IMG/VR virus record: IMGVR_UViG_3300033156_000833
Location: 1 to 34,147 of that record
DNA length: 34,147 bases
Source of the DNA: a virus
Reading direction: 5' to 3' (one strand)
Part shown: positions 1-31,104 of the stretch, piece by piece
Layout: each line of letters begins with the position of its first letter
Numbering within the stretch: the stretch's first letter is position 1
Notes under the pieces: generated by a model
Seen by the model: only the letters and a program-made list of their open reading frames with translations
What the model was told of the DNA's origin: nothing
Databases searched by the model: none
Made by a program: the position numbers and the translations under genes

Positions 1-1
1 A

Positions 2-1452: not shown

Positions 1453-1541
1453 GAAGAAAAATAAGAAAAGAAAATGAAGAACTCCTTCGTTTAATAAAGT
1501 TAAAAAGGTCGAAACGAAGGAGAAAGGCAAATAATAAGTAA
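1449..1541 (+). CDS. 30-aa Arg/Lys-rich peptide
   Basis: A very short gene translationally coupled (ATGA overlap) to the membrane peptide before it. The product has a charged, helix-prone N-half (RKENEELLRLIKL) and a strongly basic C-half with KRSKRRRKANNK. This is the composition of an arginine-rich motif that binds RNA hairpins, as in the N-terminal part of lambda-type N proteins. Its own coding sequence contains a hairpin with AAGGTCG in the loop (1482-1522), related to others across the genome. It may also be a chance ORF, since the hairpin alone would constrain part of this sequence; I give it even odds. Confidence 0.45.
   Translation: MRRKIRKENEELLRLIKLKRSKRRRKANNK
1482..1522 (+). repeat. 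AAGGTCG-loop hairpin, copy 1
   Basis: An 11-bp perfect stem (1482-1492 with 1512-1522) around a 19-base loop that ends in AAGGTCG (1505-1511). It is the longest-looped member of a genome-wide hairpin family. The 3' arm includes AAGGAG, a possible Shine-Dalgarno site, which pairing would hide, but the next start (1558) is 35 bases away. Confidence 0.7.
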
Positions 1542-1557
1542 TTTAAAAACTAAATAT

Positions 1558-2259
1558 ATGACAGAGAAAGAAAAGAATGCCAGCAAGGAAAAGGAAAATG
1601 TAGAAATAATCCCAGTTGAACAGAAAACGCCGATGAGATTTGATCCTGAAAAAGAGATTGAGTTTGCGGCAAGAGCAGCTAAGGCATTGAAAGGAATTAT
1701 AGAAAGAAAGCCGGAGAAGGTAATAATAAATGGTGAACAGTATTTAGAATTTGAAGATTGGCAGACGATAGCAAGGTTTTTCAATACAACTGTTGGAACA
1801 GAAAGAACTGAAAAAATAGTTGATGATGAAGGTAATCTTATTGGATATAATGCAACTGCTGTTGTTTATAATCCGCAAGGAATTAAAATAGGCAGTGCAG
1901 AGGCCAGTTGTTTAAGAGATGAAAAGAATTGGAAGGATAAACCAGAATTTCAACTGAAATCGATGGCCCAAACTCGAGCTTGTGCTAAGGCTCTAAGAAA
2001 TATATTTGGCTGGGTTGTGGTATTAGCTGGATATAAAACTACTCCGGCTGAAGAGTTGAATGATAGAAATTATGAAGCAAAGACTTTTACAAGAAAGACT
2101 GTAAAGAAAAAAGTTAAAGAAAAATCGGTAGAAAAAGATGAAATTTGTGTTGATTGCGGAATGAAAGTCACAAAGGCAGAAAAGGAATATTCAGAGAAGC
2201 ATTATCCGTTTAGTCCTCTCTGTAGAAATTGCCAGAAAAAGTATAAGAAAAAAGTATGA
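1558..2259 (+). CDS. Probable single-strand annealing protein (Erf/Rad52-like) with zinc ribbon
   Basis: A 233-aa protein. The core (residues ~25-160) includes YLEFEDWQTIARFF and LKSMAQTRACAKALRNIFG, then a GYKTTPAEEL segment. I recognise this pattern from uncharacterised phage proteins found beside replication genes, and it resembles the helix-rich core of Erf/Rad52-type recombinases, which anneal complementary single strands during phage recombination and replication. The C-terminus has two CxxC pairs (CVDCG and CRNC), a zinc ribbon that could contact DNA. The charged N-terminus (~25 aa) looks disordered. It leads a pair with the following coiled-coil gene (ATGA overlap). Functional assignment is by pattern memory, not a firm domain match. 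Confidence 0.5.
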   Translation: MTEKEKNASKEKENVEIIPVEQKTPMRFDPEKEIEFAARAAKALKGIIERKPEKVIINGEQYLEFEDWQTIARFFNTTVGTERTEKIVDDEGNLIGYNATAVVYNPQGIKIGSAEASCLRDEKNWKDKPEFQLKSMAQTRACAKALRNIFGWVVVLAGYKTTPAEELNDRNYEAKTFTRKTVKKKVKEKSVEKDEICVDCGMKVTKAEKEYSEKHYPFSPLCRNCQKKYKKKV

Positions 2260-2690
2260 CAATACAAGAAAAGGCCAAAAAAATAGTTGAGATCCGGAAT
2301 AAAATTAATGAATTGAAAGAAAAGATGGATAAGTTAAAAGCAGAAAGAGATAAATTACAAGCTGATATTATTGAACATCTGAAACGACTTGGATTTAATT
2401 CAATTAAAACTCAAGAAGCGATGATATCAAGACAGGTTGCGAGAACATTGACAATAGTTGACGAAAAGGCTTTGGTTGAGGATTTAAAAAAGAAAGGGTT
2501 GAATGATTATATTAGAGAACAAGTTGATAGAAATTTATGGCGAGGACTTGCTACTGAAGCAATTAAACAGGGACAAAAATTTAAAGGAACTGAAATAAAA
2601 GAATCTGAATTTATTAGTGTTAGAAAGGTAAAGCCAAAGATTGATAAAGAAATTATGGTATCAGATTCCGGATCTGCAATAGAAAAATAG
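2256..2690 (+). CDS. Coiled-coil protein next to the recombinase
   Basis: A 144-aa protein whose first ~45 residues are a clear coiled coil (KINELKEKMDKLKAERDKL and on), followed by a compact domain with IKTQEAMISRQVARTLTIVD. Its start overlaps the stop of the annealing protein by four bases, so the two are probably made together. The arrangement, coiled coil plus small domain beside a recombinase, is seen in phage accessory recombination or nuclease-inhibitor proteins, but I recognise no named family. The stop codon's last base is also the first base of the structured RNA at 2690. Confidence 0.55.
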   Translation: MTIQEKAKKIVEIRNKINELKEKMDKLKAERDKLQADIIEHLKRLGFNSIKTQEAMISRQVARTLTIVDEKALVEDLKKKGLNDYIREQVDRNLWRGLATEAIKQGQKFKGTEIKESEFISVRKVKPKIDKEIMVSDSGSAIEK

Positions 2691-2803
2691 CCTCTTCCTT
2701 GTAGGCAAATCAGCACCTTAGTCAGCTCCTCGAAGGTGCGGGAGCTTCAAGCCATTAAGTTGGCAGTAGCTTCCCAAACTGATGGGGGGCTGGCATAAGA
2801 GGC
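2690..2803 (+). ncRNA. Candidate structured RNA with overlapping, mutually exclusive stems
   Basis: A GC-rich island of 114 bases in AT-rich DNA. A 7-bp outer stem (2690-2696 with 2797-2803) closes it. Inside: stem a pairs 2713-2719 with 2733-2739 (7 bp); stem b pairs 2724-2729, which lies in the loop of a, with 2741-2746 (6 bp), giving a pseudoknot or two competing hairpins. A hairpin at 2751-2754/2761-2764 has loop TTAAGT. Stem c pairs 2768-2775 with 2784-2791 (8 bp, two G-U). A further alternative pairs 2740-2746 with 2768-2775 through a one-base bulge around the TTAAGT hairpin. So many exclusive pairings suggest a switch. It lies 24 bases before the next start. It matches no riboswitch or ribozyme I know. 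Confidence 0.6.
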
Positions 2804-2827
2804 TGATAAATGGTAAAATATAAATAT

Positions 2828-3229
2828 ATGGATAATTTAACAAAATTACAATATAAAACTCTTGAAGTTTTAGTAAATTTAAAAGGTAAAGAAATTACTG
2901 GTAGAGAACTTGCTAAACTTATTGGAATGAAAGGAGACAAACCGGGAAAATTAGGGGCAAATATGAGATCTATTATAAATGCCCTCCGAACAAAAGGTTG
3001 GCCAATTTGTGCTAATTCGGAGGGTTATTTTTATGCTCAAACTCCGGAACAATTATCTAAATATATTGTAGATTTTCAGGCAAGAATAGATAAACAACAA
3101 CAAGCTTGTGATGGACTCCAAAATGCTTTTGATAAAATAGAAAATAATAGTTTTAAGCGAGAATATATTGTTTATAAAGTTAATGGAAAAGAAGTAGCAA
3201 AAATACCTAAATATGAAGCTTCAATTTAA
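2828..3229 (+). CDS. Winged-helix DNA-binding protein, replication region
   Basis: A 133-aa protein. Residues ~4-65 form a winged helix: LTKLQYKTLEVLVNLKGKEI, then ELAKLIGMKG, a recognition helix in ANMRSIINALRTKGWPI, and a wing NSEGYFYA. It continues with TPEQLSKYIVDFQARID, a helix common in phage proteins of this kind found just before replication initiators. I chose ATG 2828 because its context (TAAATATATG) matches that of the annealing-protein start at 1558; ATG 2810 would add six residues. Expected role: DNA binding in replication or early regulation. It directly follows the structured RNA, which may control it, and overlaps the initiator gene by 17 bases. Confidence 0.65.
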   Translation: MDNLTKLQYKTLEVLVNLKGKEITGRELAKLIGMKGDKPGKLGANMRSIINALRTKGWPICANSEGYFYAQTPEQLSKYIVDFQARIDKQQQACDGLQNAFDKIENNSFKREYIVYKVNGKEVAKIPKYEASI

Positions 3230-3980
3230 ATTTTTACCAATACCAGAGGAATTAATGAGATCCAAAGCAATAAGTTGGGGAGCTAAATTTTTATTTGGCA
3301 TTATAGCAAAAGCAAATTTAGATGGAGTTAGAATGAGTAATAAACATTTGGCAGAAAGAATGAATTGCACAGTTAGGCAAGTTCAAAGAAGAGTAGCTGA
3401 ATTAAGAGATAATGGTTTTATTATTGTAAAAAGAACTGGCAGATCAAATGTTTATTTTGTTAATTTTGAGCTTGTTCAAATAATCCAAACAGATGACAAA
3501 AATGTCGTATCAGATATGACATCAGATGTCGTATCAGATATGACGCATGATGTCGTATCCACTATAAAGAACAATTCTAAAAGAACTTCTTTAAATAATA
3601 TGTCGCAAAGCGACACTCCTTTTGATTTAAAAGAATATCTTGAAAAAATGAAAAAAGATAAAAGACGAGCTATTCAGATTATTGCTCTCTGGATAGAACA
3701 GAAAGGTTTAAAACCAGAGACTTATAAGCAAATGGAAAGTATTATTAAAAGAAATTTAAGGCCTGCTCAGTTGTTAGTTGGATATAAAGATGAAGATATA
3801 ATTGAGACTATTAAGGTGATAAAAAATACCGACTGGATTAAAAAATTCACCCTTGAAACTGTATTAAAATTTATTGATGAGACTATTTCAATGAGGAAAA
3901 AAGAAAAAAAGATAGTTAAGCTTAAAAGAGTAATAATAGATGGAAAACCAATAGTTAAAATTATTTATGCAAAAAATTAA
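3213..3980 (+). CDS. Probable replication initiator with winged helix
   Basis: A 255-aa protein. The N-terminal domain (residues ~1-85) is a winged helix of the kind seen in phage and plasmid initiators: WGAKFLFGIIAKANLDG, HLAERMNCTVRQVQRRVAEL, DNGFIIVKR wing. A linker with repeated DVVSDMT units (~95-115) is encoded by iteron-like DNA repeats. A helical, basic C-terminal domain (~130-255) may bind host replication proteins, as lambda O and DnaD-like proteins do. An initiator gene that contains its own origin is the lambda O arrangement. No helicase or polymerase gene is present, so it must recruit the host's. The stop overlaps the next start. Confidence 0.65.
   Translation: MKLQFKFLPIPEELMRSKAISWGAKFLFGIIAKANLDGVRMSNKHLAERMNCTVRQVQRRVAELRDNGFIIVKRTGRSNVYFVNFELVQIIQTDDKNVVSDMTSDVVSDMTHDVVSTIKNNSKRTSLNNMSQSDTPFDLKEYLEKMKKDKRRAIQIIALWIEQKGLKPETYKQMESIIKRNLRPAQLLVGYKDEDIIETIKVIKNTDWIKKFTLETVLKFIDETISMRKKEKKIVKLKRVIIDGKPIVKIIYAKN
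3502..3560 (+). repeat. Iteron-like direct repeats, likely replication origin
   Basis: Units start at 3502, 3526 and 3550, exactly 24 bp apart. The first two share 19 identical bases beginning ATGTCGTATCAG; the third keeps the first 11 (ATGTCGTATC and the next C as a partial match). Each full unit holds a near-palindrome, GTCGTATC / GATATGAC, suitable for a dimeric protein. They sit in the linker of the initiator gene and are followed by about 40 bases of very AT-rich DNA (3561-3601), a plausible unwinding site. Confidence 0.65.
3602..3614. other. Perfect palindrome beside the iterons
   Basis: GTCGC AAA GCGAC: two 5-bp arms around AAA, at the far side of the AT-rich stretch after the iterons. 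The arms repeat the GTCG found in each iteron, so it may bind the same protein. It is inside the initiator coding sequence. Confidence 0.45.
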
Positions 3981-4464
3981 AAAAATTACAACAGAAATAG
4001 CTTTATTTATACTTTTTTTGGAAGTAATTATTGTAATGATAATGGTTTTGATAATTCTATTTGGGGCCAGGACAGCTTCCGAGCAGGAAGTTGGGCAAAG
4101 TTATTATTCGCCCGGACATTCTCCGTTTTTGGTGGAGAACAGGGATCAAATATATAATAATAGCCCTAACTGGCCTCAAATAGTTATAGCAACTTGGTAT
4201 AATCGTGAAAATTGTTTAAATTGTAGAAAAGATTTATTAACAGCAAGTGGGATTGAGTTGCCGGAAGATGGAATGTTTGCCGCTTATGATAATGTGTCAT
4301 TAGGAGAATATTTATTAGTAAAATATCAAGATAAGTTTATTATAGTAAAAGTGATAGATAGAATAGGAGATCCAAGTAAAATAGATTTATTACCAATGGC
4401 ATTTTCAAGTTTAGAGGATTTAAGGGTTGGAAAAGTTAAGGTAGAGGTTTATAAATTTAAATAA
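3967..4464 (+). CDS. Membrane-anchored RlpA-like double-psi beta-barrel protein
   Basis: A 165-aa protein with one N-terminal membrane segment (residues ~12-33, TEIALFILFLEVIIVMIMVL) and an external domain. The external part has RlpA landmarks: VIATWYN, LTASG, later FIIVKVIDRIG and a following IDLLPMAFSSL. RlpA-like domains bind or cut peptidoglycan glycan strands. Here the domain probably faces the cell wall. Two cysteines, CLNC, may form a disulfide or bind metal. It is in the early operon, not the lysis block, overlapping the initiator gene's stop, so it may alter the host wall or block a second infection rather than cause lysis. The family's catalytic Asp may be the D of VIDR; whether it is active is unclear. 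Confidence 0.6.
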   Translation: MQKIKKITTEIALFILFLEVIIVMIMVLIILFGARTASEQEVGQSYYSPGHSPFLVENRDQIYNNSPNWPQIVIATWYNRENCLNCRKDLLTASGIELPEDGMFAAYDNVSLGEYLLVKYQDKFIIVKVIDRIGDPSKIDLLPMAFSSLEDLRVGKVKVEVYKFK

Positions 4465-4486
4465 TAATTAACTTAACTTAAAATCT

Positions 4487-4708
4487 ATGCCAAAATCTAA
4501 AAATACAATTAAATTAGGTGATTTAATCAGAGAGTTGCTAATGGTAATAGAAGTTTTAAAGCCATTCCGAGAATTATATAATGAAGAATGGCATAAAAAG
4601 AAACCCAGTAAAATTTTAATAGAAGAATATGTATATATGATAAAAATTTGTGAAGAAGAAATAGAAAAGATTTGTAATCAATTAAATAAATTTGAAATAG
4701 AAGTATGA
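4487..4708 (+). CDS. Small helical protein, start-repeat family
   Basis: A 73-aa protein with no recognised domain, largely helical (IRELLMVIEVLKPFRELYNE). Its first 12 residues, MPKSKNTIKLGD, resemble the repeated N-terminus MKKNQKKTIKEGD of genes at 4950 and 5671, so it is probably a divergent member of the repeated start-segment group. Its stop is ATGA, which also begins a four-codon remnant (MTKN then stop) at 4705, a decayed copy of the same segment. Function unknown. Confidence 0.5.
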   Translation: MPKSKNTIKLGDLIRELLMVIEVLKPFRELYNEEWHKKKPSKILIEEYVYMIKICEEEIEKICNQLNKFEIEV

Positions 4709-4729
4709 CCAAGAACTAAAATAAAGTTT

Positions 4730-4978
4730 ATGAGTAAAAGACTAAGAAAAATTAGGGAAATAATATTAAAAGCAAATTGGAGAAGAGCCAAAAAAAATTA
4801 TAAATGTTGCTTTAAACACAAAAATCAATTAACAATAGTAGAAGGTTGGTCATATCTTTGTAAAAAGTGTTTGCGATATACTTTTGACTATTCTGAAAAT
4901 CAATATATTTTAGATAGAAAAAGCAAAAAAGAATTAAAAAAGTTAATCTATGACCAAAAACCAAAAGAAAACAATTAA
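4730..4978 (+). CDS. Small basic protein with Cys/His zinc-finger-like pattern
   Basis: An 82-aa, very basic protein. Two cysteines and a histidine in NYKCCFKHKNQ, then CKKC about 20 residues on, form a plausible treble-clef or ribbon-type zinc site. No known family was recognised. The C-terminal residues (IYDQKPKENN) are encoded by the repeated start segment of the next gene read in another frame, so the ending may have been created when that segment arrived. Probably an early host-takeover protein, but that is only by location. Confidence 0.5.
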   Translation: MSKRLRKIREIILKANWRRAKKNYKCCFKHKNQLTIVEGWSYLCKKCLRYTFDYSENQYILDRKSKKELKKLIYDQKPKENN

Positions 4979-4992
4979 AGAGGAGAATTGGA
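4948..4992 (+). repeat. Repeated start segment, copy A
   Basis: Begins CTATGACCAAAAACCAAAAG and ends in an AAAGAGGAG stretch. It holds the start codon and first ~13 codons of the gene at 4950 and, in another frame, the end of the gene at 4730. Near-identical copies are at 5335 and 5669. Confidence 0.75.
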
Positions 4993-5114
4993 ACGAAGAA
5001 CAAAGAAAAGTAGAGATTAGAAGGTGGGTTTTAAAAAGCACATTTATAGGAAACCAGGAAGATATTGTTGACTGGATTTATAAGAACTATCCTACTAATG
5101 GATATTATCAGTAA
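4950..5114 (+). CDS. Small protein with repeated N-terminus
   Basis: A 54-aa product starting MTKNQKKTIKEENW and ending in DWIYKNYPTNGYYQ, with aromatic residues clustered at the end. The start region is nearly identical to that of the genes at 5337 and 5671, but the rest is unrelated. The gene overlaps the previous one by 29 bases. No function can be assigned. It is real if the repeated start segment is a working initiation module, which its preservation in frame supports. Confidence 0.5.
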   Translation: MTKNQKKTIKEENWNEEQRKVEIRRWVLKSTFIGNQEDIVDWIYKNYPTNGYYQ

Positions 5115-5157
5115 TTATCTTAATGGTTAAAAGAAAACCTATATTCGATAAAAAAGT

Positions 5158-5316
5158 ATGAAAAACCAAAAGAAAATTAAAGGGATTACCTACGGAAAAC
5201 TAACAAAATTTTATCTTTGGCTTAGAAGAATTTTAAAGAAAGACAATTATTTTATTGGCATTGATTATACCAATAATAGAGATTATACTTGTATTTTTTC
5301 AAAAAGTTGGAGATAA
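5158..5316 (+). CDS. Small protein, start-repeat family
   Basis: A 52-aa product, MKNQKKIKGITYGKLTKFYL at the start, then a basic helix and a YFIGIDYTNNRDYTCIF strand-like stretch. The start is a shortened version of the repeated segment (MKNQKKIK compared with MTKNQKKTIK). A 12-codon ORF at 5123-5161 ends on its ATG (ATGA), which might couple translation. Function unknown. Confidence 0.45.
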   Translation: MKNQKKIKGITYGKLTKFYLWLRRILKKDNYFIGIDYTNNRDYTCIFSKSWR

Positions 5317-5334
5317 ATATTATTTGATTAAAAC

Positions 5335-5373
5335 CTATGACCAAAAACCAAAATAAAACAATTAAAGAGGAGG
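5335..5373 (+). repeat. Repeated start segment, copy B
   Basis: CTATGACCAAAAACCAAAAT and on to AAAGAGGAGG; differs from the copy at 4948 by a single G/T change over its first ~37 bases. It supplies the start of the 5337 gene. Here nothing overlaps it from upstream. Confidence 0.75.
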
Positions 5374-5699
5374 TTAAACAACTCATTGAAGATATAATGC
5401 AGTCTGGTTTTGAGGTATCAATGATTGGTTTTTTTGATAAATCTCCAGAAGAAAATAAAAGATTGCAAGAGAAAGAGTATAATAAATTAGTTGAGTTTTA
5501 TAGTCAGCAAATAATTGATGAATTTTTTTATAAAACCCTTCAATGCTTTATAGAAGAGACGAACCCTAAGAAAGAATCATTAAATAGTGGCAATTTTAGA
5601 TGGGTTGATTATTATAATGAATTCGTGGAAGAACTTAACCAAAAGCAACAACAATGGCTAAAAAAAATCTATGAAGAAAAACCAAAAGAAAACAATTAA
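5337..5699 (+). CDS. Acidic helical protein with repeated N-terminus
   Basis: A 120-aa, mainly helical, acidic protein beginning MTKNQNKTIKEEVKQLIEDI. Four of its charged helices carry regular Glu/Lys spacing. Its last residues, EEKPKENN, are encoded by the next copy of the repeated start segment in another frame, exactly as happens at the end of the 4730 gene. No domain recognised. The overlap with the next gene is 29 bases. Confidence 0.55.
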   Translation: MTKNQNKTIKEEVKQLIEDIMQSGFEVSMIGFFDKSPEENKRLQEKEYNKLVEFYSQQIIDEFFYKTLQCFIEETNPKKESLNSGNFRWVDYYNEFVEELNQKQQQWLKKIYEEKPKENN

Positions 5700-5713
5700 A
5701 GAAGGAGATTGGT
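5669..5713 (+). repeat. Repeated start segment, copy C
   Basis: CTATGAAGAAAAACCAAAAG and on to AAAGAAGGAGATTGG. Same layout as copy A, including overlap with the end of the upstream gene in another frame. Weaker copies start at 4485, 4705, 5157, 5998 and 19570. Confidence 0.75.
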
Positions 5714-5988
5714 TTTTACTACGGTCTGATTTGGTTGTGCGGTTATATTATTGGGATAACCAAATTATAGGAGGAATGTTATGGTATTATAGTTTAGTTC
5801 CTGTTTATCGCACAGGCATATTAGATGGAAAAGGTTATGCTTGGGTTGACGGAGGTATTAAGCAAGTGTCTATTGGAGAAATGCAAAAATATGAAGAATA
5901 TCTTAAAAATCATAGAAAATTGACGAAAAAAGAAATTGAGAGAATATCGCCTTTTCCCGATGAAGCAATTTTATTTAAGAATTTTTAA
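5671..5988 (+). CDS. Small beta-rich protein with repeated N-terminus
   Basis: A 105-aa protein: MKKNQKKTIKEGDWFLLRSD start, then alternating strand-like segments (VVRLYYWDNQIIGGMLWYY, GYAWVDGGIKQVSIG) and a short charged C-terminal helix. The KEGDWFL beginning resembles the first strand of a small SH3-like or OB barrel, but no family can be named. It overlaps the preceding gene by 29 bases and is followed 11 bases later by another repeat-start gene. Confidence 0.5.
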   Translation: MKKNQKKTIKEGDWFLLRSDLVVRLYYWDNQIIGGMLWYYSLVPVYRTGILDGKGYAWVDGGIKQVSIGEMQKYEEYLKNHRKLTKKEIERISPFPDEAILFKNF

Positions 5989-5999
5989 ACATTAAACCT

Positions 6000-6251
6000 A
6001 TGACCAAAAACCAACAACTAAAAGAAAAAATAGCCGAGATAATAATTAAACACTTAGGAGTATGCGATAAAGAAAGCCCAGAAGAGATTTTGAGGTTGTT
6101 TAAGGAAGAGGTGAAAGAAGATGAGAAAGATGAAAAATGTCAACATAAGTGGGTTTTAGTTAAACATACAGTTGAGTGGGGAAATGAATGCGTTTATCTT
6201 TATTGTGAAAGATGTGGGAAATATATTTATAGAAAAGTAGAAAGCTATTAA
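6000..6251 (+). CDS. Small protein with C-terminal zinc-binding motif
   Basis: An 83-aa protein. The N-terminus MTKNQQLKEKIAEIIIKHLG is a diverged repeat start merging into a helix. The C-terminus holds CQHKWVLVKHTVEW then CERCGKYIYRK, a Cys-His plus CxxC set that probably binds zinc; this KCQHKW...YCERCG pattern is common in small phage proteins of unknown role. Last gene before the glycan cassette. Confidence 0.55.
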   Translation: MTKNQQLKEKIAEIIIKHLGVCDKESPEEILRLFKEEVKEDEKDEKCQHKWVLVKHTVEWGNECVYLYCERCGKYIYRKVESY

Positions 6252-6263
6252 GAAGTTAGAAGT

Positions 6264-6914
6264 ATGAAAAATTGCAAAGAAAATTTTAAGTTTATAACTT
6301 CCTGGGATGATTATTGTTTAGAAAATATTAAATTAGCTGAAGTGTTAAAAAAATATAATTTACCGGCAATTTTCTTTATTGAGTTAAGTAAAAAAGAGGC
6401 AAAAGAGCAAATAAAATATTTATCAGATCTTGGGTTTGAAATAGGAAGCCATACAATAAATCATCCGCAAGATTTAAAAAAACTTGCTTTAGAAGGAAAT
6501 TTTGAAAAATTATATTATGAGATAGATGATTCAAAAAAAATATTAGAATTATTAACAGAAAAGACTATTGAATGGTTTTGTTATCCAAGAGGTAGATATA
6601 ATGATGTAATTAAAGATGTTGTTGAAACTTTTGGGTATAAATATGCAAGAACAACAAAGGTTTTAAATATAGAGCATCCGGATGATCTTTATGAAATAGA
6701 GACATCAATTCATGTATATCCAAATCGAAAAGAGTATGGTGGTAAAAAATGGATTGATATTGCTTTTAAGTTATTTGATGAGGCTTATAAAAATAATGGA
6801 TATTTTCATCTTTGGGGTCATGCTTGGGAAATTGAAAAATTTGGTCTTTGGGATGAACTTGAATGGTTTTTAAAATATGTTAAATCAACATTTTTTGCTA
6901 ATGGTATAGAATAG
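6264..6914 (+). CDS. Polysaccharide deacetylase (NodB homology, CE4)
   Basis: A 216-aa enzyme of carbohydrate esterase family 4, expected to remove acetyl groups from N-acetylated sugars. Motif 1 is TSWDDY (catalytic and metal Asp). Motif 2 is SHTINHP, with the two metal-binding His. Motif 3 is CYPRGRYND. HLWGHAWEIE near the C-terminus supplies the late His motif. All key residues are present and there is no signal peptide, so it acts in the cytoplasm on a sugar precursor rather than on assembled cell wall. First gene of a cassette with glycosyltransferases, spaced by only 3 bases from the next. Confidence 0.85.
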   Translation: MKNCKENFKFITSWDDYCLENIKLAEVLKKYNLPAIFFIELSKKEAKEQIKYLSDLGFEIGSHTINHPQDLKKLALEGNFEKLYYEIDDSKKILELLTEKTIEWFCYPRGRYNDVIKDVVETFGYKYARTTKVLNIEHPDDLYEIETSIHVYPNRKEYGGKKWIDIAFKLFDEAYKNNGYFHLWGHAWEIEKFGLWDELEWFLKYVKSTFFANGIE

Positions 6915-6917
6915 TTT

Positions 6918-7772
6918 ATGAAAATATATCTTGCAAATAGTTCAAAACAGAAAATTGGCGGTGGTTGGACATTTTTAAATAACTTATATAATGGATTAAA
7001 AGATAAGGTTGATTTTGTTAATAATTGGCAGGATTGTGATATTTATTTTATATCTGGAGCAACAATGGTTGAAAGAAGTGAAGTTAAAGCAGTGAAAGAA
7101 GCTGGAAAGAAAATAATATTAAGAGTTGATAATATTCCAAGAAATAGCAGAAATAGGAATACTGGGACAAGCAGATTATATGACTTTGCTCAATTAGCTG
7201 ATAAAGTAATTTATCAATCTCGATGGGCAAAAGAATATGTTGGATATTTTATACAAAAAGATGGACCAATAATTTATAATGGAGTAGATACAAAGATTTT
7301 TAATCCGCAAGGAGAGAAACTGCCAAGAACTAAAAATAATGTTTATCTTTATGTGCAGTATAATCGAGATGAGAATAAGAGAATGCCTGAAGCTTTTATG
7401 TATTTTCATTGGTATTGGAAAAAAAATAAAGATTCAGAATTATGGTTAATGGGTAGGTTTTCACCGGAGCTTATTAAATATAATTTTGACTTTTTTATGA
7501 ATGAACCAGTAAGGTATTTAGGAGTTAGAGAATATCCTTATGATGTAGCAAAGGTTATGAGGTCGGTCGATATTCTCTTAATTCCTTATTTTTGTGATGC
7601 GTGTAGTAATACTTTATTAGAAGGAATTGCCTCTGGTTGTAAGATAGATTTTTGTCTATCTGGCCTTACTGGAGGAGCTAAAGAATTAATTGAGCTTTCA
7701 GATATTTCATTAGAGCGAATGTGTAATGAATATCTGAAGGTTTTTAAAGAATTATGCGAAAAAGACAAATAA
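6918..7772 (+). CDS. Glycosyltransferase, GT-B fold (GT4-like)
   Basis: A 284-aa retaining-type glycosyltransferase. It starts with KIGGGWTFLNNLYNGL, the glycine-rich loop of GT-B enzymes, continues with RVDNIPRN and YQSRWAKEYVG, and has NGVDTKIFNP, a hallmark of GT4. CSNTLLEGIASGCKIDF matches the family's donor-binding EX7E region. It is short for GT4, with a small C-terminal lobe. It overlaps the next gene by 19 bases. Donor and acceptor cannot be read from sequence; neighbours suggest a phage or host glycan. Confidence 0.8.
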   Translation: MKIYLANSSKQKIGGGWTFLNNLYNGLKDKVDFVNNWQDCDIYFISGATMVERSEVKAVKEAGKKIILRVDNIPRNSRNRNTGTSRLYDFAQLADKVIYQSRWAKEYVGYFIQKDGPIIYNGVDTKIFNPQGEKLPRTKNNVYLYVQYNRDENKRMPEAFMYFHWYWKKNKDSELWLMGRFSPELIKYNFDFFMNEPVRYLGVREYPYDVAKVMRSVDILLIPYFCDACSNTLLEGIASGCKIDFCLSGLTGGAKELIELSDISLERMCNEYLKVFKELCEKDK

Positions 7773-8104
7773 AAAAATTCTTAAAAAAGCAGTTAAAAGA
7801 ACATGAACTTTTATTAATTAGAAATAAAATTGAATGTGATTTTTTTGAGAAACAGGCTAAAAAAATATGCTCTAACAAAGAAAGAAAAGAGTTTGAAAAT
7901 AAAGAAGCTTGGTTAAGGGCTCATCAAAAAGAAGAGCATATTAAAAAGACTAAAAAGTGGAAAGAAGTAGTTGATAGATGTAGAAAATTAAATGAGAAAA
8001 TCCAAATGGCAGGTGAATTAGAGCAACGAGTTATGAAATTAAAAAGAGATAGAATTTTAATTGAAGGTTATATTGATTATTTAAAAAAGCTATTAAGAAG
8101 TTAA
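7754..8104 (+). CDS. Basic coiled-coil protein
   Basis: A 116-aa protein, almost entirely charged helix (KKFLKKQLKEHELLLIRNK and similar heptads), with two scattered cysteines but no motif I recognise. It overlaps the glycosyltransferase before it, so it is made from the same transcript. It could be a scaffold or accessory subunit of the glycan cassette or simply a passenger. Confidence 0.5.
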   Translation: MRKRQIKKFLKKQLKEHELLLIRNKIECDFFEKQAKKICSNKERKEFENKEAWLRAHQKEEHIKKTKKWKEVVDRCRKLNEKIQMAGELEQRVMKLKRDRILIEGYIDYLKKLLRS

Positions 8105-8129
8105 AAATAAACTAATAGATAATAAAAAT

Positions 8130-8285
8130 ATGAAACTTATTACTTACCTTTTAATTACTCTCGGAATGCTTGGAATAATGATTGTAGATTTTAATCCCCA
8201 TTCTTGGTATTTTCTCATTGGTTGGACTTCATTTTGTCTTGGTATGGCATTTTTAGTATATGAGGTTTATAAAAAAAGATTATGA
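8130..8285 (+). CDS. Small two-pass membrane protein
   Basis: A 51-aa peptide with two hydrophobic segments (residues ~3-19 and ~26-45) joined by a short DFNPHS turn and ending in basic KKRL, so both ends should face the cytoplasm. Its stop overlaps the start of the methyltransferase as ATGA. Small membrane peptides in glycan loci can act as flippase or anchor helpers; here that is speculation. Confidence 0.55.
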   Translation: MKLITYLLITLGMLGIMIVDFNPHSWYFLIGWTSFCLGMAFLVYEVYKKRL

Positions 8286-8905
8286 GTTCTTATTTTAGAC
8301 AACAATTAGAAGACTGGTTAAAAACTATTGATGTTAAAGCAGATAGAGTATTGGATGTTGGTGGTGGAGCTAATCCTGTTAAAGGAAGGACGAAAAGCTG
8401 GGATGTTAAAGAGTATAAGATTTTGGATAATGGATTAGAGGAAATGAAGTGTAAGCCTGATTATATTGCTGATTTAAATAAGGATTGGTTTTGGATAAGC
8501 ACGAAAACGAAAAGTGGATGGGATAGTATTTTAGGAGAAGAAAATATTCAAAATTTTGATGTAGTTTTTTGTTTGGAGGTAATGGACTATGTATGGGATC
8601 CTCATCAGGCATTATTTAATTTAAATTGGTCGTTAAAAACAAATGGTATTCTTTATATCTCATTTCCATTTATTTATCCTCATCATAATCCGGAAGGTCA
8701 TGATTATTTGCGGTATACTCGCTGGGGGGTTGAAAAATTATTAAAAGAAGTTGGATTTAAAATTGAGGAATTAAAATCAAGAGTAATGACATTAAATGGA
8801 TTTGAGAATTGGAAAGAATTTATCAAAAATGAGAAAATGCATCTTTCTAAAAATTATCAAGGACATAATGAAATAGGATATTTGGTAAAAGTAATAAAAA
8901 AATGA
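8282..8905 (+). CDS. SAM-dependent methyltransferase (class I)
   Basis: A 207-aa enzyme. Motif I VLDVGGGANP binds SAM; the acidic residue after strand 2 is in YKILDN; NFDVVFCLEVMDYVWDPHQA is motif post-II/III; NGILYISFPFIYPHH is the late strand. The HHNPEGHDYLRYT segment is typical of Methyltransf_11-like enzymes in sugar and secondary-metabolite clusters. It likely methylates a sugar or lipid-linked intermediate made by the neighbouring enzymes. Overlaps (4 bases) on both sides indicate a translationally coupled chain. Confidence 0.8.
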   Translation: MSSYFRQQLEDWLKTIDVKADRVLDVGGGANPVKGRTKSWDVKEYKILDNGLEEMKCKPDYIADLNKDWFWISTKTKSGWDSILGEENIQNFDVVFCLEVMDYVWDPHQALFNLNWSLKTNGILYISFPFIYPHHNPEGHDYLRYTRWGVEKLLKEVGFKIEELKSRVMTLNGFENWKEFIKNEKMHLSKNYQGHNEIGYLVKVIKK

Positions 8906-9867
8906 AAAAAATAAAAATATTTGGAATTCCTTGGCATGCCTCGCATCAATATGAATTATTTAAACTGCCAAATTGTGAATTTTATTTGCTTATAAACAAC
9001 TGCCGGGAATGGGCTCCAAGAGCAAGACCTTTACCGAAAAATGTAAAATGGGTTCCTTATTATGAGCCAGGAAAGTATGATTTAGCAATTCTCCATGTTG
9101 ATCAGATGAGTATAGACGAAAGATTAAGTAATAAAGGAATTATTTTTAGAGAATTAAATAAACAAATCCAAGATATTCCGAAAATAGTTATAAATCATGG
9201 AAGCCCAGTTTGGCCAGAATGGTATACAAAGGAAGAAATAATTGAGAAAATGGCAAAACTGGTTGGTGATAATATAATGGTTGTTAATTCTTATAAAGCT
9301 GCAGAGGAATGGAAAGGAGTTGGAAAAGAGATTGTGCCAATAATTCATGGGCTTGATCCTAAAGAATGGTGGGATTTAAAAAAGGAGCCGAGAATTATAA
9401 CAGCAGTATCGCCGGCTGGTCTTGATACTTATTATAATCGTAAATTATATAAAGCAACGCAGGAAGAATTAGGAAAAAAAGGAATAGCAATAGTTCATTT
9501 AAGAATTCATATATTTTTTGATAATTGGGATGATTATAGAGATTATCTTGGCAGATCATTGATTTATTTTGATTATTCTTTACATACGCCAATGAATAGA
9601 GCAAGAACAGAAGCAATGTTATCTGGATGTTGTATTGTGACAGCTAAAAATCATGATGTTGAAAGATTTATAGAAAATGGAAAAAATGGCTTTATAATAC
9701 CAAACAATCCTTATTCTGCGGCAAGATTATTAGAAAAATTAATAAATGATTATGATCGTTGTATAAAGGTCGGCCAAAAAGGAAAAGAAACAGCAATCCG
9801 CTTTTTTAATAAAGATCGATATCAAAGAGATTGGCTAAATCTTATTAAAAAGGTGATAAATAAATGA
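8902..9867 (+). CDS. Glycosyltransferase, paralogue of the 17727 gene
   Basis: A 321-aa GT-B-like enzyme. Key segments: GIPWHASHQYELF, VPYYEPGKYDLAILHVDQ, IVINHGSPVWPE, MVVNSYKAAEEW, and TPMNRARTEAMLSGCCIV, the donor-site region with the GT4-type Glu. The same segments recur almost unchanged in the 340-aa protein at 17727, so the two arose by duplication or were acquired together. The 17727 copy is longer in the middle. Probably they transfer different sugars or act on successive positions. It is coupled by ATGA to both neighbours, the methyltransferase and a virion-type protein. Confidence 0.78.
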   Translation: MKKIKIFGIPWHASHQYELFKLPNCEFYLLINNCREWAPRARPLPKNVKWVPYYEPGKYDLAILHVDQMSIDERLSNKGIIFRELNKQIQDIPKIVINHGSPVWPEWYTKEEIIEKMAKLVGDNIMVVNSYKAAEEWKGVGKEIVPIIHGLDPKEWWDLKKEPRIITAVSPAGLDTYYNRKLYKATQEELGKKGIAIVHLRIHIFFDNWDDYRDYLGRSLIYFDYSLHTPMNRARTEAMLSGCCIVTAKNHDVERFIENGKNGFIIPNNPYSAARLLEKLINDYDRCIKVGQKGKETAIRFFNKDRYQRDWLNLIKKVINK

Positions 9868-10433
9868 GTAAGTTATTAAAATTTTTATCTTTGCCTCTTG
9901 GTAGAACTGGAATTTCAGACTCTGAAGGAGATTATATGGATATTGACGGAAAAACACATTCCGGGGTTATTATTGATACTATTCATCATAAAGTTCACGA
10001 AGGAGATTATTATGTGCTTAATGATCTTGATGAAGATGTTGATATTGAAGCACCAAAAAAATGGCTTCTAAAAACACCGACTGATAAAGAAATTCATATT
10101 AAGATAGTTATGGAGGCAAATAATTCTGGAAAAGTTGAATTTTATGAAAACCCAACAGTCACTAATAATGGAACCGAAGTATCTATTTATAATGTTAATA
10201 GAAATTCAGGCAATACTTCTTCTTTGAATTTCTATAGAGATCCAACAGTATCTGGTGGAACATTGATAGAGGTTAGGCTTATTGGAACAGATAATAATAA
10301 GACAAAAATAGGTGGGTATGCAAATGAAGGTGAAGAGTTTATATTAAAAAAAGATGAAGATTATTTGATTGTATTTACTCCGGACAATGATAATACTAAA
10401 GTTCTTTTTAATGCTGGTTTTTATGAGGTCTAA
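9864..10433 (+). CDS. Virion decoration-like protein
   Basis: A 189-aa protein without signal peptide or membrane segment. Segments IIDTIHHKVHEGDYYVLND, KVEFYENPTVTNNGTEV, VNRNSGNTSSLNFYRDPTV and a terminal beta stretch form a pattern I know from phage head/tail-associated beta-sandwich proteins, which usually lie between the capsid and connector genes. Here it instead ends the first glycan cassette, 14 kb from the capsid gene. ATGA overlap with the glycosyltransferase ties their expression. That pairing makes it the best candidate acceptor for virion glycosylation, an inference only. Confidence 0.6.
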   Translation: MSKLLKFLSLPLGRTGISDSEGDYMDIDGKTHSGVIIDTIHHKVHEGDYYVLNDLDEDVDIEAPKKWLLKTPTDKEIHIKIVMEANNSGKVEFYENPTVTNNGTEVSIYNVNRNSGNTSSLNFYRDPTVSGGTLIEVRLIGTDNNKTKIGGYANEGEEFILKKDEDYLIVFTPDNDNTKVLFNAGFYEV

Positions 10434-10441
10434 ATAAAAAA

Positions 10442-10472
10442 ACCACCAGCCGAAAACTGGATATCTGGTGGT
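10442..10472 (+). terminator. Hairpin after the first glycan cassette, possible terminator
   Basis: Perfect 8-bp arms (10442-10449 with 10465-10472) around a 15-base loop, 8 bases after the stop codon. The stretch before it is A-rich, which would give a U-tract for transcription from the other strand; in the + direction only GTGAAAAACTT follows. So termination of + transcripts is uncertain. The 5' arm ACCACCAG occurs again at 19812. Confidence 0.45.
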
Positions 10473-10479
10473 GAAAAAC

Positions 10480-10510
10480 TTGACAGTTTTATCTTTATAT
10501 TGTCTATCAT
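10480..10510 (+). promoter_or_regulatory. Possible promoter for the packaging genes
   Basis: TTGACA (10480-10485) is exact; the best -10 is TATCAT (10505-10510, 5 of 6), but the spacing is 19 bp, long for sigma70. It is the only promoter-like site in the 110-base gap and precedes the gene at 10543 by 33 bases. Confidence 0.4.
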
Positions 10511-10542
10511 AACAAATTAAATATATTTTGTCAAGAGGAAAG

Positions 10543-10887
10543 ATGTATTTTCAAAGGAAGCAGAACAAATATTATAATATTGAACAGGTTTATAATGGAG
10601 TAAGGTATGACAGCAAAAAAGAAGCTCAATATGCTTATGAGTTGGATATGAGAAAAAAAGCCGGCGAAATAAAAGATTGGGAAAGGCAAATAACAATACC
10701 ATTAAAGGTTTATGGAAAAACAATCTGCACTTATAGAATAGACTTTAAGGTTTATCATAATGATGGAACTATAGAATGGGTTGAGGTTAAAGGATTTCCA
10801 ACTTATTCTTGGAGGTTAAAATGGAAACTTTTTGAGGCTATTTGGTCGCATGAACATCCAGAGGATATTTTAACGGTTATTAAATAA
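10543..10887 (+). CDS. DUF1064 nuclease-like protein
   Basis: A 114-aa protein of the DUF1064 family, small phage proteins with a PD-(D/E)XK-like core. The pattern is complete: VRYDSKKEAQYAYELDM, GEIKDWERQITIPL, YRIDFKVYHND and WVEVKGF, where D, E and the E-V-K form the presumed active site. Such proteins are suggested to act in DNA processing or packaging, with no settled substrate. I chose ATG 10543, which has AGAGG five bases upstream (one of few clear SD sites here), over a TTG at 10528. It leads the packaging block. Confidence 0.78.
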   Translation: MYFQRKQNKYYNIEQVYNGVRYDSKKEAQYAYELDMRKKAGEIKDWERQITIPLKVYGKTICTYRIDFKVYHNDGTIEWVEVKGFPTYSWRLKWKLFEAIWSHEHPEDILTVIK

Positions 10888-10905
10888 TAAAGGTCGAATA
10901 TTTAA
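10880..10905 (+). repeat. AAGGTCG-loop hairpin, copy 2
   Basis: 7-bp all-A/T stem (10880-10886 with 10899-10905) with a 12-base loop containing AAGGTCG (10890-10896). It includes the stop codon of the DUF1064 gene. Alone it would be weak, but loop and placement match the other members. Confidence 0.5.
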
Positions 10906-10933
10906 CTAATAAAAATTAACAAGTAAAAAAACT

Positions 10934-11119
10934 ATGAAAAAAGTAAAAACATTAGCATTAATATCAATGATAATTTCTTCACTTGGATTATTTGGCTCAT
11001 TTGTATTAATAGGAAGTGATGGTGGATCAGGACTATTAGGAGTAATTATTTATGGTTTTTATCTGTGGTTTTCTGTTGAAGTAAGAGCATTAAAAGAAAG
11101 TAAAAGAAGAAGAAAATAA
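10934..11119 (+). CDS. Small two-pass membrane protein
   Basis: A 61-aa peptide with two hydrophobic segments (residues ~6-25 and ~33-48) around a glycine-rich loop GSDGGSGLLG and a strongly basic C-terminus KESKRRRK. Its position between a nuclease-like and a ParB-like gene gives no functional clue. It starts 28 bases after the hairpin and 3 bases separate it from the next gene. Confidence 0.55.
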   Translation: MKKVKTLALISMIISSLGLFGSFVLIGSDGGSGLLGVIIYGFYLWFSVEVRALKESKRRRK

Positions 11120-11121
11120 AC

Positions 11122-11703
11122 ATGAAAGTAGTTAAAGTAAATATCGATGATTTAAAGTTTGCTGAATATAATCCAAGGGCGGCAACGGAAAAAGAAATTA
11201 AAGATTTAAAAGAATCTTTAAAAAGATTTGGTTTTGTTGAGCCAATTGTAGTTAATAATGCTCCGAAAAGAAAAAATGTAATAATTGGAGGTCATTTTAG
11301 AGTTAAGGTTGCAAAAGAATTAGGAATTAAAGAAATCCCAGTAGTTTATGTGAATATTCCTGACTTAAAAAGAGAACAAGAACTAAATTTAAGGCTCAAT
11401 AAAAATTTAGGCCATTGGGATTATGATTTATTGGCAAATTTTGATGAAGAGATGTTGTTAGATGTTGGTTGGGAAGAGGATGAGATATTAGAAATGTTTA
11501 GTTTAAATGAAGTAGAAGATTATGAGATTGATTTTGAAAGATATTCTGTTTTAATGATAAATCCTCCGGGGGGTGTGAGATTAAAAGAAAGAATTTTAAT
11601 TCAGTTTGATAGTAAAAATGATTATGATAAAGTTAAAAAATTTTTGAGAAATAAAGAAAATGAAGATTTATTAAAAGAAAAGATTTTAGAAATTATTAAA
11701 TAA
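11122..11703 (+). CDS. ParB-like nuclease-domain protein
   Basis: A 193-aa protein whose first ~95 residues are a ParB/Srx-type domain: VNIDDLKFAEYNPRAAT, LKRFGFVEPIVVNNA, and the conserved box VIIGGHFRVKVAKELG. ParB folds bind CTP or act as phosphate-handling nucleases. In phages such proteins stand next to DNA methyltransferases and terminase genes, as here, with one base to the cytosine methyltransferase. There is no ParA and no centromere-like repeat, so plasmid partition is unlikely. The C-terminal half (IDFERYSVLMINPPGGVRLK) is a separate small domain that also occurs after ParB domains in phage proteins. Confidence 0.75.
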   Translation: MKVVKVNIDDLKFAEYNPRAATEKEIKDLKESLKRFGFVEPIVVNNAPKRKNVIIGGHFRVKVAKELGIKEIPVVYVNIPDLKREQELNLRLNKNLGHWDYDLLANFDEEMLLDVGWEEDEILEMFSLNEVEDYEIDFERYSVLMINPPGGVRLKERILIQFDSKNDYDKVKKFLRNKENEDLLKEKILEIIK

Positions 11704-11704
11704 T

Positions 11705-12589: not shown

Positions 12590-12592
12590 TTA

Positions 12593-12612: not shown

Positions 12613-12619
12613 GGGATAT

Positions 12620-21992: not shown

Positions 21993-22017
21993 AAACTTTC
22001 GTTAGGTCGGAAAGTTT
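21993..22017 (+). repeat. AAGGTCG-type hairpin, copy 3
   Basis: 8-bp stem (21993-22000 with 22010-22017) and loop GTTAGGTCG, where one A of the core is T. It lies between portal and protease; the 3' arm ends 5 bases before the ATG at 22023. Confidence 0.65.
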
Positions 22018-24652: not shown

Positions 24653-24673
24653 TGAAGGCCTTACTGGCCTTCA
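24653..24673 (+). terminator. Hairpin after the capsid gene
   Basis: 8-bp GC-rich perfect stem (24653-24660 with 24666-24673), loop TTACT. There is no U-tract, so it may block exonucleases and stabilise the capsid mRNA rather than terminate. It abuts the larger hairpin at 24673. Confidence 0.5.
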
Positions 24674-24723
24674 TGCTACGCTCGAGTGTTTTCGACCTTC
24701 ACTCGAGCGGAGCATAAAGGTCG
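24673..24723. repeat. AAGGTCG-loop hairpin, copy 4, in opposite orientation
   Basis: Stem 24673-24688 with 24700-24715: 15 pairs with one A/G mismatch, the strongest in the window. The 11-base loop (24689-24699) reads CGACCTT on + and AAGGTCGAAAA on the other strand, so it is the family motif inverted. Just after it, 24717-24723 is AAGGTCG again; it can pair with the loop to form an alternative 7-bp hairpin that excludes the big stem. No start codon is near (next at 24751). Confidence 0.65.
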
Positions 24724-24750
24724 GTAATTCATAAAAGTAAAAATAAAATT

Positions 24751-26343: not shown

Positions 26344-26781
26344 ATGGCTGATACAACCTATACAATATTGAAAAATAAAATAAAGGAGAAACTTCAAGGA
26401 ATATCTAAAATTCAGGAAGTTTATGATGAACCGAGATTAGAATTTTCTGGTTATCCTGCTGCAATAATTACTCCCTCTGAAGATGAATCTGATTATGAAA
26501 CAACAACTGAAAATTTAAGGGTTTATGTTTTTAATATTGATCTTTTTTATGAGATACCAAGTTCTGGAATATCAGAGGCTTTAGATGCTTTATATGATTT
26601 AGCTGATGATGTTATGGATGCCTTTGATCAGGACCAAACATTATCAGGAATATCTTTACCAAGTAGGTATACAATGGTCGGAATTGAACCAAGCTCTGGG
26701 GCATGGAGCGAGGTTCCAGATAAAAAATTATTAACTAAAACAGTTAAATTAAGAATAAAAATTAGTGTAGACATCAGCTAA
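26344..26781 (+). CDS. Tail terminator protein
   Basis: A 145-aa alpha/beta protein in the tail-terminator slot between gp10-like and tail tube genes. KIQEVYDEPRLEFSGYPAAI followed by YVFNIDLFYEI, a helical ALDALYDLADDVMDAFDQD and a final strand LLTKTVKLRIKISVDIS fit the lambda gpU / SPP1 gp17 fold. It should cap the tail tube and fix tail length. Its stop codon lies inside the hairpin at 26771. Confidence 0.72.
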   Translation: MADTTYTILKNKIKEKLQGISKIQEVYDEPRLEFSGYPAAIITPSEDESDYETTTENLRVYVFNIDLFYEIPSSGISEALDALYDLADDVMDAFDQDQTLSGISLPSRYTMVGIEPSSGAWSEVPDKKLLTKTVKLRIKISVDIS

Positions 26782-26793
26782 GGTCGCTGATGT
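26771..26793 (+). repeat. AAGGTCG-loop hairpin, copy 5
   Basis: Perfect 8-bp stem (26771-26778 with 26786-26793) and loop TAAGGTC, followed by G. It contains the stop codon of the tail terminator gene and ends 6 bases before the tail tube ATG at 26800. Confidence 0.72.
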
Positions 26794-27790: not shown

Positions 27791-27825
27791 AAGGTCGATT
27801 TAGCTTAGTAGTTTAATTAACTAAG
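27791..27825 (+). repeat. AAGGTCG motif with nearby hairpin, copy 7 (loose)
   Basis: AAGGTCG at 27791-27797 has no clear flanking arms of its own, unlike other members. A separate 6-bp stem follows (27804-27809 with 27820-27825), ending 11 bases before the ATG at 27837. It is in the tail tube to chaperone gap. Included because of motif and place; structure is doubtful. Confidence 0.35.
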
Positions 27826-29786: not shown

Positions 29787-31075
29787 GCCAATCAATTAAA
29801 TTTGACAATGTAGAGTTAATGAATGCCAGCTATACTCCTAAGGCTGTTAGGCATGATAGCAGTCCGATTAGGGAAATGGAAATTCTTGAATTAGCAAGAG
29901 AAGATGGTGGCGTTTTGGTTTCAGAAAGATTTAGGCCAAAAGTTATTGAAATTGAAGGAACTTTAAAGGCCAGTTCAAGAAGTGCTTTAGATAGTTTAAT
30001 TGATGATTTTAAGGAATTATTATCAAGAAGAAATAAAAATTTAGATATTAGTTATGGCGGATCAACAAGGAGATATATTGCTTTTGCAGAAGAAATTAGG
30101 ATAAATAGAGATTATTATCATAATTTATTTGTTCCTTATTATGTTAGATTTATTGTTCCTTCTGGGGTTGGGAAAGATATAAATGAAACTGCTGCTTTAG
30201 ATGGAGTTGATGCTGATCCTACTTATACTGGCAGTGTCAGTTTTGAGGGTTCAGCACCTCCAAAACCAAAAATAACTTTAACAATTGGAAGTGGTTGGGA
30301 TTATGCAAAAGGAATTCAATTTGAAAATACTACCAGAAGTGAAAAATGTATTATAAATAAAGGAACTTATTTTTCAGATGGTGATGTTTTAATAATTGAT
30401 TGCGATGAAAAAAAAGTCACATTAAATGATGAAGAAATAGAATTTTATGGAGTTATTCCATCATTTCAGATAGGAAGCAATGATATTGAAATTAAGGCTG
30501 GAAATATTGTTGATCAACAGTTTGTTCCTGATGAAGCGAAAACATTGGTAGATGATAAGATTTATGGAGACAATTATGTTGCTCAGAGTTTTATGGTTTC
30601 TCATACTGATAAAACTTATCAGGGTTATTATCTTAGAATTAAAAAAATTGGAGACCCATCTACATACGGAAATCCTTCTTTATATGTAGAAGTTAGAACA
30701 GATTTAAATGGAAAACCATATCAAGTAGTAAGTGGATCTGCTACATCTATTTCTGTTAATGATGTTGGAACTTCGTTTGATTGGATATTAGTAAATACAG
30801 CCGCAACATTTAAATTAAATGCTAATACTAAATACTGGTTGGTAGTTTTTATGTCTGCTGGGAATGGAGATATAAATAATTGTTATGTATGGCGAGGGAA
30901 TTCAGGAATAGCAGCTAATTATGGTAGAGGGCATGTTGTAAAAACTACTGATTATGGAGGAAATTATACTGATTATACTGATCAAGATAAAGGATTTAAA
31001 CTTTTATTCGGAGGTAAGCCAGATACTTCGCCTCAATTAACTTTAGATATAGATTATTATAAAAGATGGCTATAA
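29783..31075 (+). CDS. Distal tail (Dit-like) protein with extra C-terminal domain
   Basis: A 430-aa protein. Residues ~1-130 resemble the Dit N-terminal ring domain (IEIEGTLKASSRSALDSLID, then LDISYGGSTRRYIAFAEEIR and YYVRFIVPSG). Residues ~150-240 are the usual second beta part (IQFENTTRSEKCIINKGTYF). An additional C-terminal ~190 residues, with YVAQSFMVSHTDKTYQGYYL and TKYWLVVFMSAGNGD, look like a jelly-roll module found on tail proteins that bind surfaces or sugars. It follows tape measure, the standard place for Dit. No start doubt. Confidence 0.7.
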   Translation: MSQSIKFDNVELMNASYTPKAVRHDSSPIREMEILELAREDGGVLVSERFRPKVIEIEGTLKASSRSALDSLIDDFKELLSRRNKNLDISYGGSTRRYIAFAEEIRINRDYYHNLFVPYYVRFIVPSGVGKDINETAALDGVDADPTYTGSVSFEGSAPPKPKITLTIGSGWDYAKGIQFENTTRSEKCIINKGTYFSDGDVLIIDCDEKKVTLNDEEIEFYGVIPSFQIGSNDIEIKAGNIVDQQFVPDEAKTLVDDKIYGDNYVAQSFMVSHTDKTYQGYYLRIKKIGDPSTYGNPSLYVEVRTDLNGKPYQVVSGSATSISVNDVGTSFDWILVNTAATFKLNANTKYWLVVFMSAGNGDINNCYVWRGNSGIAANYGRGHVVKTTDYGGNYTDYTDQDKGFKLLFGGKPDTSPQLTLDIDYYKRWL

Positions 31076-31082
31076 TTAAAAA

Positions 31083-31104
31083 TCTCTATTAAGGTCGATA
31101 GAGA
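31083..31104 (+). repeat. AAGGTCG-loop hairpin, copy 6
   Basis: Perfect 7-bp stem (31083-31089 with 31098-31104), loop TAAGGTCG. The 3' arm ends 6 bases before the ATG at 31111. It is the cleanest example together with the copy at 26771; their arms share no sequence. Confidence 0.7.

Follow-up and report, generated by a model that had tools for sequence, protein, structure and literature searches.

A short sense-strand motif at gene junctions of a siphophage family, enclosed by hairpins in one phage: a candidate expression signal

The viral record IMGVR_UViG_3300033156_000833 (positions 1-34,147; all 34,147 nucleotides are hereafter the window) carries at several of its gene junctions hairpins with differing arms and the recurrent loop AAGGTCG, raising the question of what is under selection here, the structure, the loop letters or both, and for what function. 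A preliminary description of the window had proposed a family of six such hairpins, at 1482, 10880, 21993, 26771 and 31083 and, inverted, at 24673, selected for structure and loop together. We find this observation to be largely right and to point to a broader phenomenon: the loop letters belong to AAAGGTCG, an asymmetric 8-letter motif copied between genes on the sense strand of this phage. Selection on its sequence is strongly supported and extends far beyond this genome. As relatives mostly keep the motif without a hairpin, comparison across them indicates that what is conserved is the sequence and that the hairpins are a lineage-specific addition, significant in this genome and not in the family.

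Recurrence and conservation of the motif

In the non-coding DNA of this phage AGGTCG is the top over-represented 6-mer, with seven sense copies against 0.096 expected. The recurrence of AAGGTCG likewise holds up under the permutation that had been suggested as a check: the plus strand has ten occurrences against 0.66 in dinucleotide shuffles (maximum 4 among 300), and the minus strand has one. The phage is a siphophage, with portal, protease, capsid, adaptor, tail terminator, major tail protein (MTP), tape measure and Dit genes on one strand, alongside a replication block, ParB/methyltransferase genes and many glycosyltransferase-like genes. Its intergenic copies are as follows:

1505-1511, plus strand: AAGGTCG in the loop of the 1482-1522 hairpin; 46 nt from the motif to the ATG of gene 1558
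10890-10896, plus strand: AAGGTCG with a stop codon 2 nt to its 5' side and the ATG of gene 10934 37 nt to its 3' side
22003-22009, plus strand: variant copy TAGGTCG, 13 nt from the protease ATG
24717-24723, plus strand: AAGGTCG in the outer stem of the 24661-24727 hairpin; 27 nt to the ATG of gene 24751
26780-26786, plus strand: AAGGTCG overlapping the tail-terminator stop codon; 13 nt to the MTP ATG
27791-27797, plus strand: AAGGTCG 13 nt past the MTP stop codon, with no clear hairpin; 39 nt to the next ATG
31091-31097, plus strand: AAGGTCG in the loop of the 31083-31104 hairpin; 13 nt to the ATG of gene 31111

The sense copies at 24717 and 27791 are additional to the hairpins originally listed. 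Together the copies mark the heads of gene groups, namely replication, ParB/methyltransferase (headed by gene 10934), protease-capsid, adaptors and tail. The junction between tail terminator and MTP, occupied by the copy at 26780-26786, is the one at which the motif is kept across the family.

This conservation was established by scans with MTP alignments, which gave about 60 non-redundant loci at 33-90% identity; the contigs are fragments, their gene calls are mechanical, and relatedness was handled solely by dropping sequences at least 95% identical in MTP. When all 7-mers in the stretch of 130 nt preceding the MTP gene are ranked by significance, AAGGTCG and AAAGGTC come first, present at 16 of 59 loci against 0.5 expected; this test leaves out the phage under study and its close kin (L003), and its nominal P of 4e-19 is inflated by relatedness. 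AAGGTCG stands in the gap between tail terminator and MTP, mostly free of hairpins, in L024, L095, L098, L028, L103-L106, L111, L113 and L118, with one-letter variants in L096, L097 and L107, and the copy at this junction is frequently the sole one in its contig. In five of the 16 loci (L034, L038, L040, L044, L091) the motif appears to lie within a small open reading frame (ORF); these five are more distant phages, in which a small additional gene separates tail terminator and MTP, with AAAGGTCG in differing reading frames. The aligned profile is sharp over AAAGGTCG and reveals no other conservation from -50 to +80. The usual layout in relatives is a stop codon, 0-15 nt, the motif, 30-42 nt and the ATG, mostly without a hairpin, and overall there are 13 to 104 nt between motif and ATG. 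Elsewhere L102 has a sense copy ahead of its capsid gene, the L118 phage has three more and L148 has one, all marking other junctions. Across motif-bearing phages the motif is about 17 times denser outside genes (23 sense copies in 27.0 kb of non-coding DNA versus 12 in 236.2 kb of coding DNA).

Several other matches did not extend this set. A copy at 3148 in L019, considered as the orthologous junction copy, is probably coding, and L077 has seven motif copies, mostly in coding DNA. A scan of all viral contigs for WAAGGTCG-N7-AAWAAAATG yielded, beyond a known relative, 20 other matches without comparable arms. Single-protein scans gave few useful relatives from portal and Dit and none from terminase.

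The positions of the copies, which mark module boundaries and chiefly those of neck and tail, would also be expected of a gene-boundary sequence serving the recombination of modules rather than expression. This we regard as very unlikely: the motif always has one orientation, many phages have it at a single junction, and it is kept between phages whose flanking genes are 35-50% identical and thus not freshly exchanged.

Hairpins around the motif

The window was checked by reading coordinates directly, enumerating all perfect hairpins and folding each against shuffles. The hairpins in question are:

1482-1522, plus strand: 11-bp stem with a 19-nt loop that ends in AAAGGTCG right before the 3' arm
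10880-10905, plus strand: seven A-U pairs around a motif copy; weak
21993-22017, plus strand: perfect 8-bp stem with loop GTTAGGTCG, -6.8 kcal/mol
24653-24673, plus strand: TGAAGGCC-TTACT-GGCCTTCA, mutually exclusive with the outer stem of 24661-24727
24661-24727, plus strand: large hairpin of 67 nt, 3' of the major capsid gene, with an inner 10-bp stem, loop TTTTCGACCTT and an outer stem of 11 pairs
26771-26793, plus strand: perfect 8-bp stem with loop TAAGGTC(G), -11.4 kcal/mol
31083-31104, plus strand: perfect stem of 7-8 bp with loop TAAGGTCG, -7.9 kcal/mol

The hairpins before the protease, MTP and gene 31111 are convincing. They end 5, 6 and 6 nt before the respective ATG, as the preliminary description had stated, their arms are mutually unrelated, and in all three exactly 13 nt separate the motif (..TCG) from the ATG. 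The one at 21993-22017 directly follows the portal stop codon, and that at 26771-26793 is built from the final tail-terminator codons (GAC ATC AGC TAA) plus spacer. More generally, loops of stems of at least 7 bp hold five of the seven non-coding AGGTCG sites of this phage against a background of 4.9-6.7% of non-coding positions (P 5e-6 to 2e-5, about 1e-5; a strong statistic, yet one based on seven sites), and none of its seven coding copies.

The remaining members of the proposed family fare differently. At 1482-1522 there is indeed a hairpin (-14.0 kcal/mol, z-score -3.3, equalled by 0 of 200 shuffles); however, its loop is a 19-nt one that merely ends in AAGGTCG. The element at 10880-10905 folds no better than shuffled sequence (-1.5 kcal/mol; 156 of 200 shuffles as good) and probably forms no stable structure, while that at 12593-12612, offered as a similar hairpin, has an all-A/T stem and no motif, with an ordinary AAGGG near a start codon. 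Chance, in the form of AT-rich hairpins combined with a common 7-mer, accounts for these last two. As an account of the whole it is the most improbable of those weighed here, being refuted for the motif by the shuffles, the 6-mer excess and the 59-locus test, and countered for the arms by the pairing statistic at seven sites.

The inverted copy described at 24673-24715 does present the loop CGACCTT, but is the inner part of 24661-24727 rather than an independent hairpin. The outer stem of the large hairpin uses the sense copy AAGGTCG at 24717-24723, and its loop displays the complement CGACCTT (24693-24699); the segment 24640-24760 folds at -43.6 kcal/mol (z-score -5.7). The pairing state of the motif copy at 24717 depends on which of two mutually exclusive hairpins in this segment forms; L003 keeps both, and the pair could be a switch.

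This arrangement bears on the suggestion of loop-loop kissing, in which the CGACCUU loop would pair with AAGGUCG loops or, as a pseudoknot, with its own downstream copy. The sole CGACCTT of the genome lies in the loop of its strongest hairpin and is kept in L003, which also carries a palindrome, AAGGTCGACCTT, after the tail gene. Such contacts are nevertheless scarcely probable: there is one suggestive site, the partner sequence is confined among motif-bearing relatives to the close kin L001 and L003, no CGACCTT occurs in the fetched sequence of more distant ones, and folding predicts GGCCTT as the pairing partner of the copy at 24717.

Among relatives, the 98% identical contig L001 keeps every late-region site, with the hairpins at 21993-22017 and 31083-31104 unchanged, the latter despite a divergent start of gene 31111. 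The 90% relative L003 keeps motif and hairpin at the MTP junction, one change opening the closing pair (7 bp versus 8 bp). It further keeps 24653-24673, with an A-to-G change that gives a G-U pair, and 24661-24727, with a C-to-T change that likewise gives G-U; these two G-U-preserving changes constitute the covariation evidence. Selection on structure plus loop is thus borne out in this phage and L003, but most motif-bearing relatives have no stable hairpin. At 64-72% identity, L004, L019 and L020 have MTP-junction hairpins that differ in arms and loops and lack the motif. A hairpin as a general feature of this junction was considered and set aside: it is strong in this phage, L003, L004, L019 and L020, but the mean z-score over 29 loci is -1.2. 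Strong post-capsid hairpins of unrelated sequence are present in many relatives, so that such hairpins are general and not tied to the motif. L012 has intergenic hairpins before portal and protease (3803-3837, 6001-6035) of the opposite design, with shared outer arms (AACGAG/CTCGTT), variable inner parts and a free loop.

The motif hairpins of this phage are followed by A-rich or coding sequence rather than by the U tract that follows the GC-rich stem of an intrinsic terminator, a terminator scan of positions 1-20000 lists no motif hairpin, and Rfam 15 gives no match above the gathering score within the window.

Candidate functions of the motif

A short, asymmetric box on the sense strand that separates genes which would otherwise abut, found where gene groups begin and ahead of structural genes with high expression, suggests the start of a new expression unit, and the succession of stop codon, motif and ATG resembles a short promoter-leader cassette inserted between such genes. 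The reading to which we tentatively lean is that AAAGGTCG is a single-box promoter core, or an RNA site of like effect, opening a new expression unit, and that the hairpins silence read-through mRNA; action in transcription, the start position and this silencing are what we infer. The motif would be a cis signal within the one-directional gene string of the phage family, likeliest as a T4-late-type promoter core, i.e. one 8-mer with no second box and a start a few bases downstream. Around several copies in this phage unrelated complementary arms would have been built, such that mRNA reading through from upstream would fold, with the hairpin end 5-6 nt before the AUG and hence in the ribosome footprint, and be poorly translated, while transcripts begun at or just past the loop would lack the 5' arm and be free for translation. 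The products of the protease, MTP and gene 31111 would then be delayed or limited until the signal is used. On the whole the motif probably acts as a switch for beginning or timing the production of structural proteins.

The presence of the motif without a hairpin in most relatives fits a hairpin that is an optional add-on. Consensus-type promoters are found elsewhere in the window at 1093-1129 (TTGACA-16-TATAAT) and 1274-1309 (TTGACA-17-TAATAT), each followed by a tiny gene, the former encoding a helix-turn-helix protein; 8 and 6 nt, respectively, separate the end of the -10 box from the ATG, a spacing that suggests leaderless mRNAs. Very short leaders would thus not be odd in this phage.

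The T4 late promoter is a single 8-bp box, and the motif is comparable to it in being one conserved box with no second box at a fixed distance; however, the box is AAAGGTCG here and TATAAATA in T4, making this a possible analogue and not a member. For the hairpin lock, a precedent is presented by T4 gene e, where a hairpin and an internal promoter precede the start codon, such that RNA reading through is inhibited and late transcripts are made without the 5' strand (PMC3014915). As in that leader, phage-specific arms stand directly before the start codon with a short fixed element in the hairpin region (PMC3014915), and late structural or lysis genes are concerned. Unlike gene e, several junctions of one genome are involved, and no gp55-type sigma factor was recognised in the proteins scanned.

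A number of observations weigh against a promoter core. No -10 or -35 box keeps a constant spacing to the motif, and PHROGs and Pfam scans picked out no sigma factor among the window proteins that they covered, though small factors of the gp55 type diverge fast. The genes that the phage detectably shares with the motif-bearing G652 are structural ones only, leaving no dedicated common factor evident. In T4, late promoters frequently lie partly within genes, unlike the motif here, which hugs stop codons in a manner that would fit an RNA site too. Finally, the lock is supported by one lineage only.

Start-associated sequences (SAS) of cluster K mycobacteriophages are 13 bp long and lie close to the start codon, unlike the 8-nt AAAGGTCG with its spacing of 13-104 nt. 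In their extended form (ESAS), 17-bp consensus arms shared between sites lie upstream of the SAS, unlike the unrelated arms that enclose the motif here. Like the motif, SAS are short, asymmetric repeats that precede certain phage genes in a constant orientation (PMC3203893), and about half of them come with inverted repeats (PMC3203893).

Nearly as likely as a promoter core, and equally to be held with reserve, is a site that acts in RNA, AAAGGUCG, at which an endoribonuclease or RNA-binding protein would cut, protect or repress the downstream cistron, with the site shown in a loop where possible; T4 RegB, RegA and gp43 or an autogenous tail-protein operator provide models. A protein-binding role, which the preliminary description had raised, is in this sense possible. 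The motif occurs on the sense strand only and just past stop codons, outside translated sequence, and the single intergenic copies before the major tail gene suggest autogenous control. The G-U-preserving changes in the 24661 hairpin point the same way, as do the copies of this phage, in which the motif is unpaired far above shuffled flanks (0.89, 0.92, 0.85 and others). Outside this phage, however, selection for unpairedness proved unspecific (0.60 versus 0.51, matched by coding controls at 0.53 versus 0.44). Moreover, most relatives keep the motif hairpin-free, which speaks against an ancestral role as a protein site displayed by a hairpin; the motif lies seemingly within the small ORF of the five loci noted above; and no RNA-binding domain was found in the small proteins of this phage that were scanned.

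Known systems of this kind share some features with it. The sites of T4 gp43, RNA-phage coat operators and CsrA/RsmA have fixed loop letters and free stems near start codons, but most relatives here keep AAAGGTCG free of hairpins, and the loop letters are neither GGA nor UAAC; for CsrA/RsmA in particular, GGA is wanted in the loop, which here reads AAGGTCG. Lambdoid nut/boxB sites combine variable stems and a conserved loop in RNA between genes. Each such genome has one or two boxB copies, with boxA as their partner; here, by contrast, no boxA-like element or N-like protein was seen.

Sites resembling Shine-Dalgarno (SD) sequences are scarce upstream of the genes of this phage, which would favour the motif as a ribosome-recruiting element that replaces them, its AAAGG/AGGU presented in a loop to the 16S 3' end. 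The 16S end ..CACCUCCUUU of Candidate Phyla Radiation (CPR) bacteria can pair with AAAGG. The ribosome contact originally proposed is nonetheless disfavoured and unlikely: the spacing of 13-104 nt to the ATG exceeds the SD range (about 5-10 nt), the invariant UCG adds no pairing, leaving half of the motif outside the normal anti-SD match, most genes in these phages do without the motif at their starts, and the CGACCTTT complements are unconserved in 16S, 23S and RNase P RNA from the CPR genomes read.

Host association and meaning

Relatives of the MTP were found in a metagenome-assembled genome of Magasanikbacteria, and among genomes sampled more widely 9 of 381 from the same class and 5 of 380 from the same phylum also have them; by these sequence matches the MTP family is associated with CPR bacteria (Patescibacteria), a link at the level of the family and not of this phage's own host. 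In 287 CPR genomes AAAGGTCG mostly fails to exceed its reversed control, and host genomes in general carry no excess of it. One CPR genome, G491, has 16 copies of the palindrome CGACCTTTNNAAAGGTCG, mostly GC-centred and within longer inverted repeats (e.g. L140 844-861, L141 1501-1518 and L142 1501-1518); the repeat contains the same 8-mer and is probably unrelated to the phage motif. The phage itself has, at 6264-9867 and 14422-19603, glycosyltransferase-, deacetylase- and methyltransferase-like genes, unusually many for a 34-kb phage, including a paralogue pair (8902-9867 and the 17727-18749 gene).

We found no published description of CPR-phage regulatory signals in the literature searched. 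In its widest form our proposal, a tentative one, is that AAAGGTCG may be the core of an undescribed expression signal that a large family of phages, kin to those of CPR bacteria, shares and a common factor reads, wrapped in the lineage of this phage in independently evolved lock hairpins, i.e. a promoter-in-loop timing code for structural genes. The hairpins show a fixed signal enclosed in freely evolving arms, and if the proposal is true, the single-gene device of T4 gene e would be extended to several junctions of one genome. The hosts of CPR phages are mostly uncultured, and with tail proteins no more than 35-50% identical between phages that keep it, the motif offers a handle, obtained from sequence alone, on how these phages start or time expression.

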